22,148 nt of DNA. Source: a virus. The stretch lies in IMG/VR virus record IMGVR_UViG_3300021085_000250, positions 1-22,148 of that record; one strand, 5' to 3'. Numbering within the stretch: position 1 is the stretch's first letter; every line of letters starts with the position of its first letter. A model generated the notes under the pieces. It was given only the letters and a program-made list of their open reading frames with translations. It did no database searches and was not told where the DNA came from. This document shows positions 9,049 to 18,079 of this stretch, piece by piece. Made by a program: the position numbers and the translations under genes.

Positions 9049-9798
9049 TTATTCTCCAATAAAATCTAAAAGGTTAGTTATGATTTGAACGCCAGATTCT
9101 CTGGCTTTCTTAGTTTTAGCAGATTCGACTCCGCTTTCATTCACCAGGATTGTGACATCCTTGGTCAAACTTGATTTGACCACATAACCAAGCTCTTGCA
9201 ATATGTTTTGAGCCTCGGCTTTTGTCTTGAAACTCTTTAGCTTACCAGAGATACAGACTATACCGTGGGTTGTGGTTGTAGTTTGTGTTTTTGCAAATTT
9301 AAAACTAAAAGGTAACAAAGACACTTGATAATACTCGTCATGTATCCAGTTACACAAATTAGTAGATGCTTTCTCGCCTAGACCAGCTTTACGGCACACA
9401 TCGTAGTCTATTTCTTCAATGTCTTCGCAGACTTTCGAGAGTTTTTCCGAGGCTGATTTACCAATTAACGGTATGCTGAAAGCAGGAAGCAACACATTAA
9501 GTGGTGCAGTCCTAGATCGTTGCAACTCATCTACTAACTTGACGGCAAGACGATCTGAAGATAAGGCAAGGGAAATCTCTTCAAGAGACAAGTCGTAAAG
9601 TTCCTCAAGAGAAACAATATCTAACTTAGCTATAGTAGCTGGCCCTAAGCCTTTGATCTTCAGTGTCTTGGCAAAGTGCTCGATGAGTTTTGCAACTTTT
9701 TCTCCGCAATGCGGATTTTTACAATACAGAAGATGATTGACCGCTACAAGTACCGAGCTGCAACTTGGGCAAACTGTGGGTGCTTCTATTGTGGTCAT
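9049..9798 (-). CDS. ligB: NAD-dependent DNA ligase, small subunit (zinc finger, HhH, BRCT)
   Basis: This 249-aa protein is the C-terminal half of a bacterial-type LigA made as a separate polypeptide. A four-cysteine zinc finger (Cys10, Cys13, Cys26, Cys31) opens it, helix-hairpin-helix repeats follow (IKGLGPATIAKL at 48-59; IPLIGKSASEKL at 109-120), and a BRCT domain covers about 178-249 (ISGKLKSF). It has no adenylation site and must work with the large subunit encoded just upstream. A consensus promoter lies between the two halves, and GAGGAGA precedes the ATG. The D5-like ATG begins one base after its stop. Phage T5 also has its NAD ligase in two genes. Confidence 0.93.
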   Translation of the reverse strand: MTTIEAPTVCPSCSSVLVAVNHLLYCKNPHCGEKVAKLIEHFAKTLKIKGLGPATIAKLDIVSLEELYDLSLEEISLALSSDRLAVKLVDELQRSRTAPLNVLLPAFSIPLIGKSASEKLSKVCEDIEEIDYDVCRKAGLGEKASTNLCNWIHDEYYQVSLLPFSFKFAKTQTTTTTHGIVCISGKLKSFKTKAEAQNILQELGYVVKSSLTKDVTILVNESGVESAKTKKARESGVQIITNLLDFIGE

Positions 9799-9824
9799 GG
9801 TCTCTCCTCTGAAATTGAAAGTAT

Positions 9825-9853
9825 ATTATACGGAAATTTAAGATTTCTGTCAA
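9825..9853 (-). promoter_or_regulatory. Sigma70 promoter between the two ligase genes
   Basis: TTGACA at 9853-9848 and TATAAT at 9830-9825, spacer 17, with an AATAATTC tract upstream of the -35. Predicted start near 9818, about 20 bases before the ATG of the small ligase subunit. It would drive that subunit and the D5-like gene independently of the large subunit. Confidence 0.9.
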
Positions 9854-9871
9854 GAATTATTTTTCTTCATG

Positions 9872-10798
9872 TCAAACAGGTTCTACCCGTCTGACAATCC
9901 GAGGTATAATATCCCCAGACCTAATAACTTCTACATAACAACCGATTTCAAGGTTTAGATCACGAATGTACTCGATGTTGTGCAGTGTAGCACGAGACAC
10001 GTTAGCGCCATCAATAACTACAGGATCTAAAATAGCCACAGGACTTACGACCCCTGACTTTCCTAGCTGCCATACAACATCTTTCAATTGCGTCATCTCT
10101 CCTGCCTTGACTGATTTCAGGGCAAAAGCACCTCGAGGGTGATTCGCTGTATGTCCCAAGGCATCAAACTTTACGTTTGACTTAAGTCGAAACACGTCAC
10201 CATCCGTAGGATAGTCACTACAGTCGAATCGAGTTACTACATTGAAACCTAACTTGTGCAACTCTTCGAGAGCACAAGGGTATTTTGTAGTAAGATGAGG
10301 CGTAGCATCGTATGCCACAAAGACTAAGGGGCGAGTTTTAAACTCAGCAAGATCATTAAGACCAAGCGACCCCGAAGCGAAGTTGCGGGCGTTTGCTATA
10401 CCATAAGGAGCAACTACTTCACCAGTAATCTGAACCAGGTTAGTATTACTAATCTGATTAGGTACTAGTGTAGCCATCTTATCAGTGATGTCTCTGCCTT
10501 GTATGCCGTCACCTCTCGTAAGAGCTAACTGGAGAAAACCCTCAACATACAACAGAGAAACTGCCGCTCCGTCTAACTTAGGAGTTTGAATGCACTCAGA
10601 GATATCTAAAGGAGCTTCGTGGATGTTAAAGCATTTTTGCAAACTGTACATACGATGAGCATGAGAAACCGCATCAGTTACTTGGTAACCAACTCGATTG
10701 TATTGATGCTTGGTCGCAAGAAGATCAAACTCTTCATCACTAAGAATCGGAGTACCTTCATAGTACAACTTACTTGCTCTGTCCAAAAATTCGTGCAT
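9872..10798 (-). CDS. ligA: NAD-dependent DNA ligase, large subunit (adenylation and OB domains)
   Basis: The 308-aa protein is the catalytic half of an NAD-dependent ligase that seals nicks in phage DNA. A compact Ia region for NAD binding contains YYEGTPILSDEEFD (residues 12-25). The adenylated lysine is Lys74 in KLDG, motif III is TGEVV at 125-129, and the HPRGAFALK segment is at 220-228. The OB domain has VSPVAILDPV and VSRATLHN (251-274), then IGCYVEVIRSGDIIPRIV (285-302), close to the LigA pattern. It ends where the zinc finger of a one-chain LigA would begin. AGGAGA precedes the ATG, about 20 bases after a predicted transcription start. Confidence 0.95.
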   Translation of the reverse strand: MHEFLDRASKLYYEGTPILSDEEFDLLATKHQYNRVGYQVTDAVSHAHRMYSLQKCFNIHEAPLDISECIQTPKLDGAAVSLLYVEGFLQLALTRGDGIQGRDITDKMATLVPNQISNTNLVQITGEVVAPYGIANARNFASGSLGLNDLAEFKTRPLVFVAYDATPHLTTKYPCALEELHKLGFNVVTRFDCSDYPTDGDVFRLKSNVKFDALGHTANHPRGAFALKSVKAGEMTQLKDVVWQLGKSGVVSPVAILDPVVIDGANVSRATLHNIEYIRDLNLEIGCYVEVIRSGDIIPRIVRRVEPV

Positions 10799-15908: not shown

Positions 15909-16027
15909 TCTTCTTCCTTATACGTGTGTAGTTCGCCCTTCTTCTTTGCTTCTCTCTTACGATCTTTAAATACTTTAGCTTTATTGTACTTTCGCTGGAA
16001 CTTCGCTACTGGATTCCTCTTTTTCAT
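15905..16027 (-). CDS. Small very basic phage protein, 40 aa
   Basis: The peptide begins MKKRNPVAKFQRKYNKAKVF and continues KDRKREAKKKGELHTY, ending EEE. About 40 percent of residues are Lys or Arg. Small proteins opening with RNPVAK and containing NKAKVFKD are common in tailed phages, as I recall, with unknown function; nucleic-acid binding is plausible. The ATG has GAGGTGA six bases upstream, a strong ribosome site placed inside the end of the spanin lipoprotein gene. The stop overlaps the GT8-like GTG (GTGA). Confidence 0.75.
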   Translation of the reverse strand: MKKRNPVAKFQRKYNKAKVFKDRKREAKKKGELHTYKEEE

Positions 16028-16403
16028 TCGTAGTCACCTCTCTGTAATATACAATTACTTCGCCTAACTGGCTAATGTATCTCTTGATTTCTTGCGTATT
16101 ATAAGCCATTAGCTCATAATCTGCAACTGTCATTGCGACAAACACGAGGTCTCCCCCATGTTTCTTTTTAATATCTTCCTCAAACTTATCCATGTAGGTA
16201 CGTTCTTCTTTCGGTATTTTTCTATCCGAAACTACATACCACTTGGGTTCTTTGAGGTTCAAAGGTCGAGGCATGGTAGGCTGTACAATATCTATCTGCA
16301 CGGGCTTACTTATAACTTCCACCTGTCTTGGCGGTACTTGTAGCAAACTACAACCACTAAGGGTTAGGATTGCTAATAGACTTACTGACGTCTTCAATCG
16401 CAT
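15981..16403 (-). CDS. Outer-membrane lipoprotein, probable o-spanin (Rz1-like), 140 aa
   Basis: A signal peptide with lipobox opens the protein: MRLKTSVSLLAILTLSGC, with Cys18 as the lipidated residue. A Pro-rich periplasmic region follows (VQPTMPRPLNLKEPKW) and the C-terminus is charged. The gene overlaps the end of the i-spanin gene by 47 bases in another frame, as Rz/Rz1 pairs do, so it probably joins the i-spanin to span the periplasm and fuse the membranes at lysis. It is longer than typical Rz1. AAGGAGGT lies five bases before the ATG at 16403, deciding the start over a GTG at 16460. Confidence 0.78.
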   Translation of the reverse strand: MRLKTSVSLLAILTLSGCSLLQVPPRQVEVISKPVQIDIVQPTMPRPLNLKEPKWYVVSDRKIPKEERTYMDKFEEDIKKKHGGDLVFVAMTVADYELMAYNTQEIKRYISQLGEVIVYYREVTTNEKEESSSEVPAKVQ

Positions 16404-16749
16404 CAAATACCTCCTTTGTTCTCTGGTTTGCCTGAGCTTGTATCTGCCCAGGTCTTGCACTGGCTATTTTAGCAAGGTTATGCCTACGAAAAATATCTAG
16501 GTATTCAGACATCTCAGCCTCATACTGCTGATTCTGTTGTTGCAGTGCAGCACTAGCTTTTGCTGTTTTCTCTGCATTCAGTGTGATTGCGGCTATTGTA
16601 GCCTTCTGCTCTTGATCTCGCAGGTCTTGGGCAATAATCACTGCTGCTTGCTCTTCTAATTTATTTTTCATAGGAATAACAGCGAACTGGTAGTACAGGA
16701 AACCCGCACTACCAATCGCTGCTATAACGCCTAATAAGATTTTAGACAT
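16357..16749 (-). CDS. Inner-membrane i-spanin (Rz-like), 130 aa
   Basis: A single N-terminal transmembrane segment at about 4-22 (ILLGVIAAIGSAGFLYYQF) is followed by a long helical, Ala/Glu/Gln-rich coiled coil through residue 80. A conserved-looking end reads SEYLDIFRRHNLAKIASARP then QRTKEVFDAIEDVS, as in many Rz-type spanins. Topology is N-in, C-periplasmic. It overlaps the lysozyme end by eight bases and the lipoprotein start by 47. It should bind the o-spanin lipoprotein to disrupt the outer membrane after endolysin action. Confidence 0.85.
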   Translation of the reverse strand: MSKILLGVIAAIGSAGFLYYQFAVIPMKNKLEEQAAVIIAQDLRDQEQKATIAAITLNAEKTAKASAALQQQNQQYEAEMSEYLDIFRRHNLAKIASARPGQIQAQANQRTKEVFDAIEDVSKSISNPNP

Positions 16750-17188
16750 TCTCTAACCTTGACATCAGTCGTTCTGCTCGGTTAGTAACCTGTCTATGCC
16801 AAAGTGAATCACGCCCCTCAACTGCCGCCTCTTTCCAATCTGCTCTAGCGATAGCTTTGTTCATGTTCTTAAACTTTGAAAGACGAGTTCGCCCCATATT
16901 GAACATCATATTAACAAGTATACCTTGTACTTCGTCTGGTAGTCCGTCAAAATCCCCCTGTCCGTATAAAGCGTGACACTCTGAGATTGCTGTATCGAGG
17001 TCACGATCGAAACACTCTTCAACTCTTTCTTCTGAGACTGGGGTTCCGATTGGGCTTCCGTACTCGGGGTCACTTTCAAGTACGAGGTGCCCGACTCCAA
17101 ATGTCGGATACCCAAGATGGTCGTTATAGAGTTCATACACTACTCCCTCATCAATCTTTAGCTGCTCAAAAACTGCTGCTCTATCCAC
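16742..17188 (-). CDS. T4-type lysozyme (GH24 endolysin), 148 aa
   Basis: The protein degrades peptidoglycan at the end of infection. It starts MDRAAVFEQLKIDEG, then VVYELYNDHLGYPTFGVGHL. The Glu in DEG, the Asp nine residues on (YND) and the Thr fifteen residues on (YPT) have the spacing of the T4 lysozyme Glu11-Asp20-Thr26 triad. No signal peptide is seen, so it needs a holin to cross the membrane. The start is GTG at 17188 with AAGGAG nine bases upstream. A TTG at 17326 in frame would add 46 residues that are not lysozyme-like and overlap a separate candidate gene. It is followed by the spanins. Confidence 0.92.
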   Translation of the reverse strand: MDRAAVFEQLKIDEGVVYELYNDHLGYPTFGVGHLVLESDPEYGSPIGTPVSEERVEECFDRDLDTAISECHALYGQGDFDGLPDEVQGILVNMMFNMGRTRLSKFKNMNKAIARADWKEAAVEGRDSLWHRQVTNRAERLMSRLENV

Positions 17189-17202
17189 TTTGTTTTTCTC
17201 CT

Positions 17203-17322
17203 TTATAAGCCGTAATGTATTACTGAGTAATAGATTACTGGTATTGGTGCACACAATGCGAACACTGCCGTAGCAAGATCGCAAAAAACGCACACGTGTT
17301 CGTTTTCTCGAAGGTTTTTCAC
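17203..17322 (-). CDS. Candidate holin or small membrane protein, 39 aa
   Basis: A GTG-initiated frame encodes MKNLRENEHVCVFCDLATAV then FALCAPIPVIYYSVIHYGL. The first 15 residues are polar with two Cys, and the remainder (16-39) is one hydrophobic segment containing two prolines, a single transmembrane span. AAGGAG lies seven bases before the GTG, and the stop sits just before the lysozyme ribosome site. A one-span protein immediately upstream of an unexported lysozyme is the classical place for a holin. It is very short for a holin, and a role in lysis is inferred from position only. Confidence 0.58.
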   Translation of the reverse strand: MKNLRENEHVCVFCDLATAVFALCAPIPVIYYSVIHYGL

Positions 17323-17347
17323 TCAAGTTCTCCTTAATTTAGCTTGT

Positions 17348-17366
17348 GATATAGTTAGCCTATATC
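17348..17366 (-). other. Inverted repeat at the hsp20 3' end
   Basis: On the minus strand GATATAG, loop GCTAA, CTATATC form a 7-base perfect stem that includes the hsp20 stop codon. The stem is AT-rich and no T run follows, so it is a weak candidate for a terminator or processing site between hsp20 and the lysis genes. Confidence 0.4.
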
Positions 17367-17777
17367 AACGTATTTTGGCATCGCTTCAGCAGGAATACGT
17401 TCTTCTAGTTGGATACATAGCAGTCCTCGCGCCATATATGCCTTCTCTAGTTCGATGTATTCTCCGACCTGAAAAGTTCTTTTGAAACATTTACCACTCA
17501 ATCCTTTGTGGAGGTACACTTCTTCATCTTTGGTCGTTTGCTTGCGAGTGCCTTGAATACTCAAGATATTCTGATGTAGGCTGATTTCAATATCTTTTTT
17601 ATCCCATCCTGGTATAGCAAGCTCAATTAAGTAGCCTGTTTCACCGGACTTGATTACGTTGTAACGAGGATAGCCATTATCAAAAGTATTATTAAGGAAC
17701 TGTTCGTGCATTCGGTCAAACCCTAAGAAAAATTTCGGCAGGTCTGCCATTGATAGCTGTTGTGTAGTAGTCATCAT
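17355..17777 (-). CDS. Small heat-shock protein, Hsp20/IbpA-like
   Basis: The 140-aa chaperone has an alpha-crystallin domain from about residue 38 to 128: YPRYNVIKSGETGYLIELAI, PGWDKKDIEISLHQNILSI, and YMARGLLCIQLEERIP. The N-terminal arm (MTTTQQLSMADLPKFFLGFD) and a C-terminal extension are as in IbpA-type proteins. Such proteins hold unfolded substrates; phages may use them in virion assembly or to buffer host stress. The gene has AAGGAG before two adjacent ATG codons (17777 and 17774). Two similar hairpins lie directly upstream in its leader and could form a translation-control element. Confidence 0.92.
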   Translation of the reverse strand: MMTTTQQLSMADLPKFFLGFDRMHEQFLNNTFDNGYPRYNVIKSGETGYLIELAIPGWDKKDIEISLHQNILSIQGTRKQTTKDEEVYLHKGLSGKCFKRTFQVGEYIELEKAYMARGLLCIQLEERIPAEAMPKYVDIG

Positions 17778-17787
17778 TTTACTCCTT

Positions 17788-17826
17788 GCGTCCTTTCGGA
17801 ACGCTCTGTGTCTCCTTTCGGTAGAC
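17788..17826 (-). promoter_or_regulatory. Paired GNRA-tetraloop hairpins in the hsp20 leader
   Basis: Two short hairpins of the same design lie side by side on the minus strand. The first (17826-17810) is GTCT-A-CC-GAAA-GG-AGAC and the second (17804-17788) is GCGT-T-CC-GAAA-GG-ACGC. Each has a 4-base outer stem, a one-base bulge, a CC/GG inner stem and a GAAA loop; the outer stems differ in sequence while both still pair. The second ends where the hsp20 ribosome site (AAGGAG) begins. This looks like a selected RNA structure, perhaps a translation switch, stability element or protein-binding site. Confidence 0.6.
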
Positions 17827-17842
17827 GGTGTTGTTCAGCCAC

Positions 17843-18079
17843 TTATGAGGCGGGCTGTTTGCCTAAGTAATCTTTGAGGTCTTGGTAGCCTCCAATATGT
17901 TCGCCATCTACCACTATCTGTGGTACTGTACGGGCGTAAGGAAACTTAGAGGTAAACTCCTCAACCGTATAGTTTTTGCCCAGCTTTTTGACAGAAATAT
18001 ACGCTTCCTTTTTCTCAGCAAGACTGTATGCCATATCGCAGTACACACAGCCGTCTTTCCCATAAATGACTATATTCAT
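17843..18079 (-). CDS. Glutaredoxin
   Basis: The 78-aa protein has the glutaredoxin active site CVYC at residues 11-14 (IYGKDGCVYC), the cis-proline loop TVPQI near 52-56, and the GGYQDL glutathione-binding segment near 63-68. It reduces disulfides, commonly supporting ribonucleotide reductase; no such reductase is in this window. The ATG overlaps the methyltransferase stop in an ATGA junction. It lies immediately before the hairpin-bearing leader of hsp20, so the two could be co-transcribed. Confidence 0.94.
   Translation of the reverse strand: MNIVIYGKDGCVYCDMAYSLAEKKEAYISVKKLGKNYTVEEFTSKFPYARTVPQIVVDGEHIGGYQDLKDYLGKQPAS

Follow-up and report, generated by a model that had tools for sequence, protein, structure and literature searches.

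The hsp20 gene of a group of uncultured T5-like viruses of bacteria, mostly marine, is preceded by two tandem hairpins, each with a single bulged base. These twin hairpins are a conserved RNA element, new to Rfam release 15 (from which it is absent) and common in viral metagenomes. The element covaries as a structure, is linked to hsp20, is found as a single strong copy per contig and lacks the anti-Shine-Dalgarno motif of the ROSE thermometers; its descent and its mechanism are what we infer. Judging from leader comparisons, it is likely to have descended from a ROSE leader that lost its thermosensor. By analogy with known systems, we give slightly less than an even chance to the reading that this ROSE-derived leader would serve as an operator bound by a protein, Hsp20 itself being the likeliest. 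The arrangement suggests that these phages tune a chaperone at the head of a lysozyme-containing gene cluster. The window, i.e. the whole stretch of 22,148 nt analysed here, is one whole IMG/VR record and has the following features around the element:

17826-17810, minus strand: hairpin 1 (HP1), GTCT - bulged A - CC - GAAA - GG - AGAC (sequence, folding, covariation)
17809-17805, minus strand: linker ACAGA, in relatives mostly ACAG/AYAG, 2-7 nt
17804-17788, minus strand: hairpin 2 (HP2), GCGT - bulged T - CC - GAAA - GG - ACGC (sequence, folding, covariation)
17787..17827, minus strand: the element as a whole, scored at 60.1 bits (E 1.9e-14) by covariance model R1, whose 36 sequences include the window
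17787-17782, minus strand: Shine-Dalgarno AAGGAG, outside HP1 and HP2
17355..17777, minus strand: hsp20 (PF00011, phrog_432), IbpA-like
16742..17326, minus strand: phage lysozyme (PF00959), next gene downstream of hsp20
15981..16749, minus strand: two overlapping ORFs, a spanin-like pair (membrane protein and lipoprotein-like) by inspection
17843..18079, minus strand: glutaredoxin (PF00462), gene upstream of the element

The second-best match of R1 within the window reaches 7.2 bits. The gene behind the element is identified as a small heat-shock gene by its PF00011 match; it has two in-frame ATGs (17777 and 17774), the second of which is the start used by relatives and has the better spacing to AAGGAG. 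A family search with the spanin-like ORFs gave no informative match. The gene upstream of the element varies among relatives, and with glutaredoxin just upstream the element is probably intercistronic in the window. The nearest relatives of the window's DNA polymerase, at ~45% identity, are presumably T5-like phages. By eye, two adjacent ORFs at 9049-10798 resemble a split NAD-dependent DNA ligase, which we take to be present in T5-like phages as well.

The two hairpins were noticed in a preliminary description made from the sequence alone, and both are found, as described there, in the MFE and centroid structures of the 75-nt leader (-16.3 kcal/mol). With z at -2.0 and 8 of 200 shuffles folding equally well, the predicted folding significance of the window leader taken alone is modest. 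The string CCGAAAGG occurs twice in the window, in HP1 and HP2 only (expectation 0.33; at least two occurrences also arise in 3 of 100 shuffles). An Rfam scan of the window gave zero matches at both gathering and permissive thresholds, and nucleotide BLAST of the window against isolate phages gave none either.

It is the comparison among relatives, through RNAalifold and covariation, that settles the hairpin pair as genuine. Relatives of hsp20 were drawn from IMG/VR by protein similarity alone and yielded 144 usable leaders. The preliminary description would have been contradicted by relatives keeping hsp20 without the hairpins or without paired changes; two strict hairpins are present in 125 of the 144, one strict hairpin plus a degenerate second in 18, and a single leader (L291) is without any strict hairpin. 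For covariation we used two separate sets of leaders, aligned without gaps (36 and 31 sequences) and taken from both protein-found and pattern-found loci. In the larger set 99.3% of cells are paired (71.3% when shuffled) and the covariation score is 0.804, against 0.204 for shuffled partners; in the smaller set the score is 0.735 (0.210 shuffled), with 98.0% of cells paired. Slid partners score at most 0.17. Given the 36 homologous leaders, RNAalifold, unaided, returned exactly the two-hairpin structure. In HP1, 29 different 4-bp stems were counted among 45 unique sequences, and 97% of outer-stem cells pair versus 60% with shuffled arms. The proposed check for paired substitutions in related leaders thus found them, and the claim that selection acts on the structure, not on a copied sequence, is borne out.

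What stays constant is the one-base 5′ bulge, mostly a purine (A or G in most relatives), and a C-G-rich 2-bp inner helix, CC/GG or at times TC/GA. The bulges of the window are A in HP1 and T in HP2, the latter no purine. The pair below the bulge is mostly Y-R, and an ACAG linker is frequent. A loop of GNRA type is kept as well, in several sequences (GAAA, GCAA, GTAA, GAGA, GGAA, and also the pentaloop GATAA). The stem sequence, the linker length (2-7 nt) and the spacing between HP2 and the ribosome site vary. The architecture first described therefore holds for the bulge and the inner stem, but neither the GAAA loop nor strict CC/GG is fixed among relatives. Likewise, HP2 adjoins the ribosome site in the window, as stated, but lies ~12 nt from it in the clade L180-L218.

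The linkage to hsp20 was also approached without reference to protein: a DNA pattern run over IMG/VR returned mainly hsp20 leaders. All our pattern scans were built on the CC/GG or TC/GA core, so that elements with other cores elsewhere may escape them; the protein-only sampling is free of this bias. Of 121 distinct strict elements, 119 lie directly 5′ of hsp20 and the other two (L112 and L120) one small ORF upstream. These intervening ORFs (L112 7999-8256, L120 493-738) encode small exported proteins with no Pfam match. Of 18 whole records of up to 94.6 kb, 16 contain a single strong match to the covariance model, the two exceptions being one chance pattern hit and one leader that is cut off. 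Genomes of bacteria and archaea (257 Gb) contained 94 pattern stretches; among the 80 examined, two were real elements, both on contigs of marine MAGs and preceding an hsp20 of phage type, and none of the others had both stems with a gene behind. The twin form is lacking from the hsp20-encoding isolate phages examined (T4-like cyanophages, Melnitz, HTVC103P, PWH3a-P1 and Phosso).

Given that the downstream gene encodes a small heat-shock protein, the ROSE thermometers are the obvious known system to compare. As the preliminary description held, the leader is not a standard ROSE element with a hidden AAGGAG: the Rfam models RF01832 (ROSE_2), RF02523 (ROSE_3) and RF00435 (ROSE) gave no match to the window even at E 10, and the ROSE anti-Shine-Dalgarno motif UYGCU is absent from it. 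Among carriers this motif occurs in 1 of 97 leaders, versus 71 of 77 unique hsp20 leaders without the twin form (from T4-like and other phages), where it lies 5′ of the Shine-Dalgarno. The twin leaders thus differ from ROSE in having no UYGCU/Shine-Dalgarno hairpin, the Shine-Dalgarno being free of the conserved fold, and in the window the bulges are A and T where ROSE has G.

The resemblance lies in the other half of the ROSE leader, the stable upstream hairpin, with its core of one bulge above a Y-R pair, CC/GG inner pairs and a short loop. In 48 of the 77 non-carrier leaders there is one strict hairpin (stem, bulged base, CC, loop, GG, stem), its bulged base nearly always G, and several others apparently contain it with CU/AG as the inner pairs. 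The first hairpin of ROSE_3 (consensus GAU-G-CCGAAgUCGG-GUC) has the same bulged core as the twin hairpins. The E. coli ibpA leader, which scores 100.4 bits against ROSE_2, contains the hairpin GACCU-G-UCC-AUUGU-GGA-AGGUC and repeats the core in a further hairpin upstream (AGGACGC-G-CC-UGAU-GG-GUGUUCU), so that there too two bulged hairpins stand in tandem. When written-out leader sequences were compared, the ROSE-bearing L651 (CCGAGACGCCGAAAGGGTCTCACA) and the twin-bearing L244 (CCGAGACGCCGCAAGGGTCTCACA) proved to differ by one base over the first hairpin and its flanks. The ROSE Shine-Dalgarno hairpin, folded in isolation, also forms a stem, a bulged G, an inner stem and a tetraloop, and therefore HP2 may have arisen by duplication of the upstream hairpin or have the Shine-Dalgarno hairpin itself as its origin. 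The homology of a 17-nt hairpin is unprovable, and bulged hairpins could converge. There is thus a real ROSE connection, missed in the preliminary description, but it lies in the part of the leader that is not heat-sensing. In Pseudomonas ROSE leaders, where the upstream hairpin is non-melting, its function has been called not fully understood (PMC3669281). With twin leaders that have the stable hairpin doubled and no thermosensor, and related phage leaders that have both parts, the function of the ROSE 5′ hairpin becomes testable. Several T4-like phage leaders align to ROSE_3 (L582 at 40.2 bits, E 7e-5; Melnitz at 34.1; the gathering score is 43), and those of L582, L131, L620 and L607 are likely to be real, unlisted ROSE_3 thermometers just under the gathering score.

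A different function for such hairpins is suggested by E. coli, where IbpA binds the structured 5′ UTR of its own mRNA, repressing translation; this requires R93, for which Lys is no substitute (R93K abolishes repression), position 34 (Y34) needs an aromatic residue, and self-suppression relies on oligomers (PMC10474464). The phages likewise have an IbpA-like protein and a structured leader on its own gene, but their equivalent of R93 is Lys. Position 93 (IbpA numbering) is K in 151 of 152 carriers, the window included, whereas it is R in 10 of 12 and 68 of 74 non-carriers of two sets. At position 36, next to Y34, 150 of 152 carriers have R and all non-carriers P; this P36 count is biased in the second non-carrier set, fetched with patterns that include PPYN, while its R93 count is unbiased and the first set is free of that search bias. 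Position 34 is Y or F in all carriers. In the window, K96 and R38 of Hsp20 (numbered from 17777) align with R93 and P36 of IbpA. After thinning at 75% identity, K93 is found in 31 of 32 carriers versus 2 of 39 non-carriers. In the tree 30 of the 32 thinned carriers fall in one clade (99/97), with two changes, while L047 and L070 lie outside it with weak support; the K93 contrast thus represents one or two events, and a Fisher p-value overstates it. The data for positions 36 and 93 would fit a co-change of protein and RNA, against which it must be said that the residue correlation is mostly within one clade. Lys93 could equally mean that RNA binding was lost, and changed specificity is our interpretation; a direct copy of the IbpA system is weakened by this residue. 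The only R93 among carriers is in L211 (of the L211-L213 group), and the first hairpin is degenerate there.

With these facts in hand, we rank autoregulation by Hsp20 ahead of an operator for another protein or an mRNA stabiliser, and these ahead of a thermometer, an antiterminator or a riboswitch. Because of the hsp20 linkage and the single copy per record, Hsp20 is the one factor surely co-present with the element, and the protein-binding tandem raised in the preliminary description gains support as a possibility. The two bulged hairpins would be a candidate double binding site for oligomeric Hsp20, and their 2-7 nt linker is in keeping with a flexible protein target of two sites. Free Hsp20 bound to both hairpins would keep ribosomes off the AAGGAG close by; protein aggregation during infection would draw Hsp20 off, and hsp20 translation would rise. 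Such a sensor of proteostasis would replace the thermometer, as with E. coli IbpA on its own mRNA. The ~12 nt between HP2 and the ribosome site in L180-L218 argues against simple occlusion, since a large bound particle would be needed there. More tentatively, and with the chances somewhat against it, the stable upstream hairpin of ROSE may be the ancestral binding site of the small heat-shock protein, which the T5-like phages would have doubled while dropping the thermosensor and changing the RNA-contact residues 36 and 93, a temperature sensor thereby becoming an aggregation sensor fed by protein alone.

The hairpins could instead be recognised, through their bulge, CC/GG pairs and GNRA loop, by some other protein, be it from the host (an RNA-binding protein, a ribosomal protein) or from the phage. 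The anatomy is that of an operator such as that of MS2, with a constant bulge above a mostly Y-R pair and GNRA-type loops, the pentaloop GATAA included. However, there is one strong copy per record, at hsp20 alone, no candidate protein was found, and a protein of host origin would need to be shared by many hosts, so we regard this as rather unlikely. We think no better of the proposal that the hairpins stabilise or insulate the mRNA, shielding it from 5′ decay or from upstream structure while the ribosome site stays open. They are predicted to be stable past 55 °C, and a ten-member clade (L019, L021, L022, L033, L044, L048, L064, L079, L086 and L090) has a near-consensus sigma-70 promoter (TTGACA-17/18-TATAAT) ~45 nt 5′ of HP1, which would place the element within a short structured 5′ UTR. 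For Pseudomonas ROSE leaders, a role of this kind has been put forward for hairpin I (PMC3669281). This leaves unexplained why the bulge and the CC/GG core are duplicated while the outer stems vary freely, and the window's element probably lies between two cistrons. A -10 box directly 5′ of HP1 was dropped as a general rule, as TATAAT is found there in some clades only.

A heat-sensitive switch, in which warming opens the ribosome site or the start codon, is attractive for a heat-shock gene, and start codons are predicted to be less accessible at 37 °C in 96 hsp20 leaders than in 172 controls (0.30 versus 0.54; the controls are genes of the same contigs, clade redundancy is uncorrected and the window leader does not follow the trend). 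In the clade L180-L218, for example in L188 just 5′ of hsp20, TCATAAAAGGAGAACTTTATGA could fold as an AT-rich hairpin whose loop contains the Shine-Dalgarno and whose stem contains the AUG, and a clade-specific thermolabile switch is possible there. The conserved hairpins, however, neither melt nor hold the ribosome site: the predicted formed fraction at 55 °C is 92% for HP1 and 98% for HP2, the ribosome site is outside both and UYGCU is missing. On these predictions the element, stable past 55 °C and with the ribosome site outside its hairpins, would not be a thermometer, and the switch envisaged in the preliminary description is very unlikely. Pairing of the start codon as a conserved switch was dropped, being clade-specific and absent in the window, whose AUG is predicted to be ~0.97 unpaired from 5 to 50 °C. 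The put RNA of phage HK022 is a cis-acting antiterminator, and a similar action on RNA polymerase for the hsp20-lysozyme operon could be imagined from the adjacent hairpin pair heading that operon and the terminator-like hairpins near it. But the element keeps its place within ~40 nt of the first gene's start codon and not relative to a promoter, which makes this highly improbable. Least probable of all is a metabolite riboswitch: a conserved structured leader in marine phages invites the idea, the manA motif also being found 5′ of ibpA (PMC2864571), but the element is too small, has no conserved pocket besides the hairpins, shows no alternative Shine-Dalgarno pairing and has no Rfam match.

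Three known RNAs deserve comparison. The coat-protein operator of MS2/R17 is a short stem with one 5′ bulged base, 2 bp and a 4-nt loop; our hairpins share this short stem, single 5′ bulge, 2 bp and 4-nt loop but differ in having a GNRA loop, two copies and an unrelated protein. To our knowledge, a levivirus coat protein gene is not expected in a tailed phage. The pan motif also has bulged hairpins in tandem, suggestive of a dimeric protein site, but with two bulged As per stem; it belongs to pantothenate genes and is bacterial (PMC2864571). The manA motif, found in marine phages and sometimes 5′ of ibpA (PMC2864571), resembles our element in both respects, yet the Rfam scan of the window matches neither manA nor pan. 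CsrA/RsmA sites were dropped, GGA not being conserved. Finally, the leaders L219-L278 have an extra hairpin ~40-60 nt 5′ of HP1, with a constant loop TTCCACC followed by CGGG; its stems apparently covary (ACCACT/AGTGGT, CTCACT/AGTGAG), and it is perhaps the terminator of the upstream gene.
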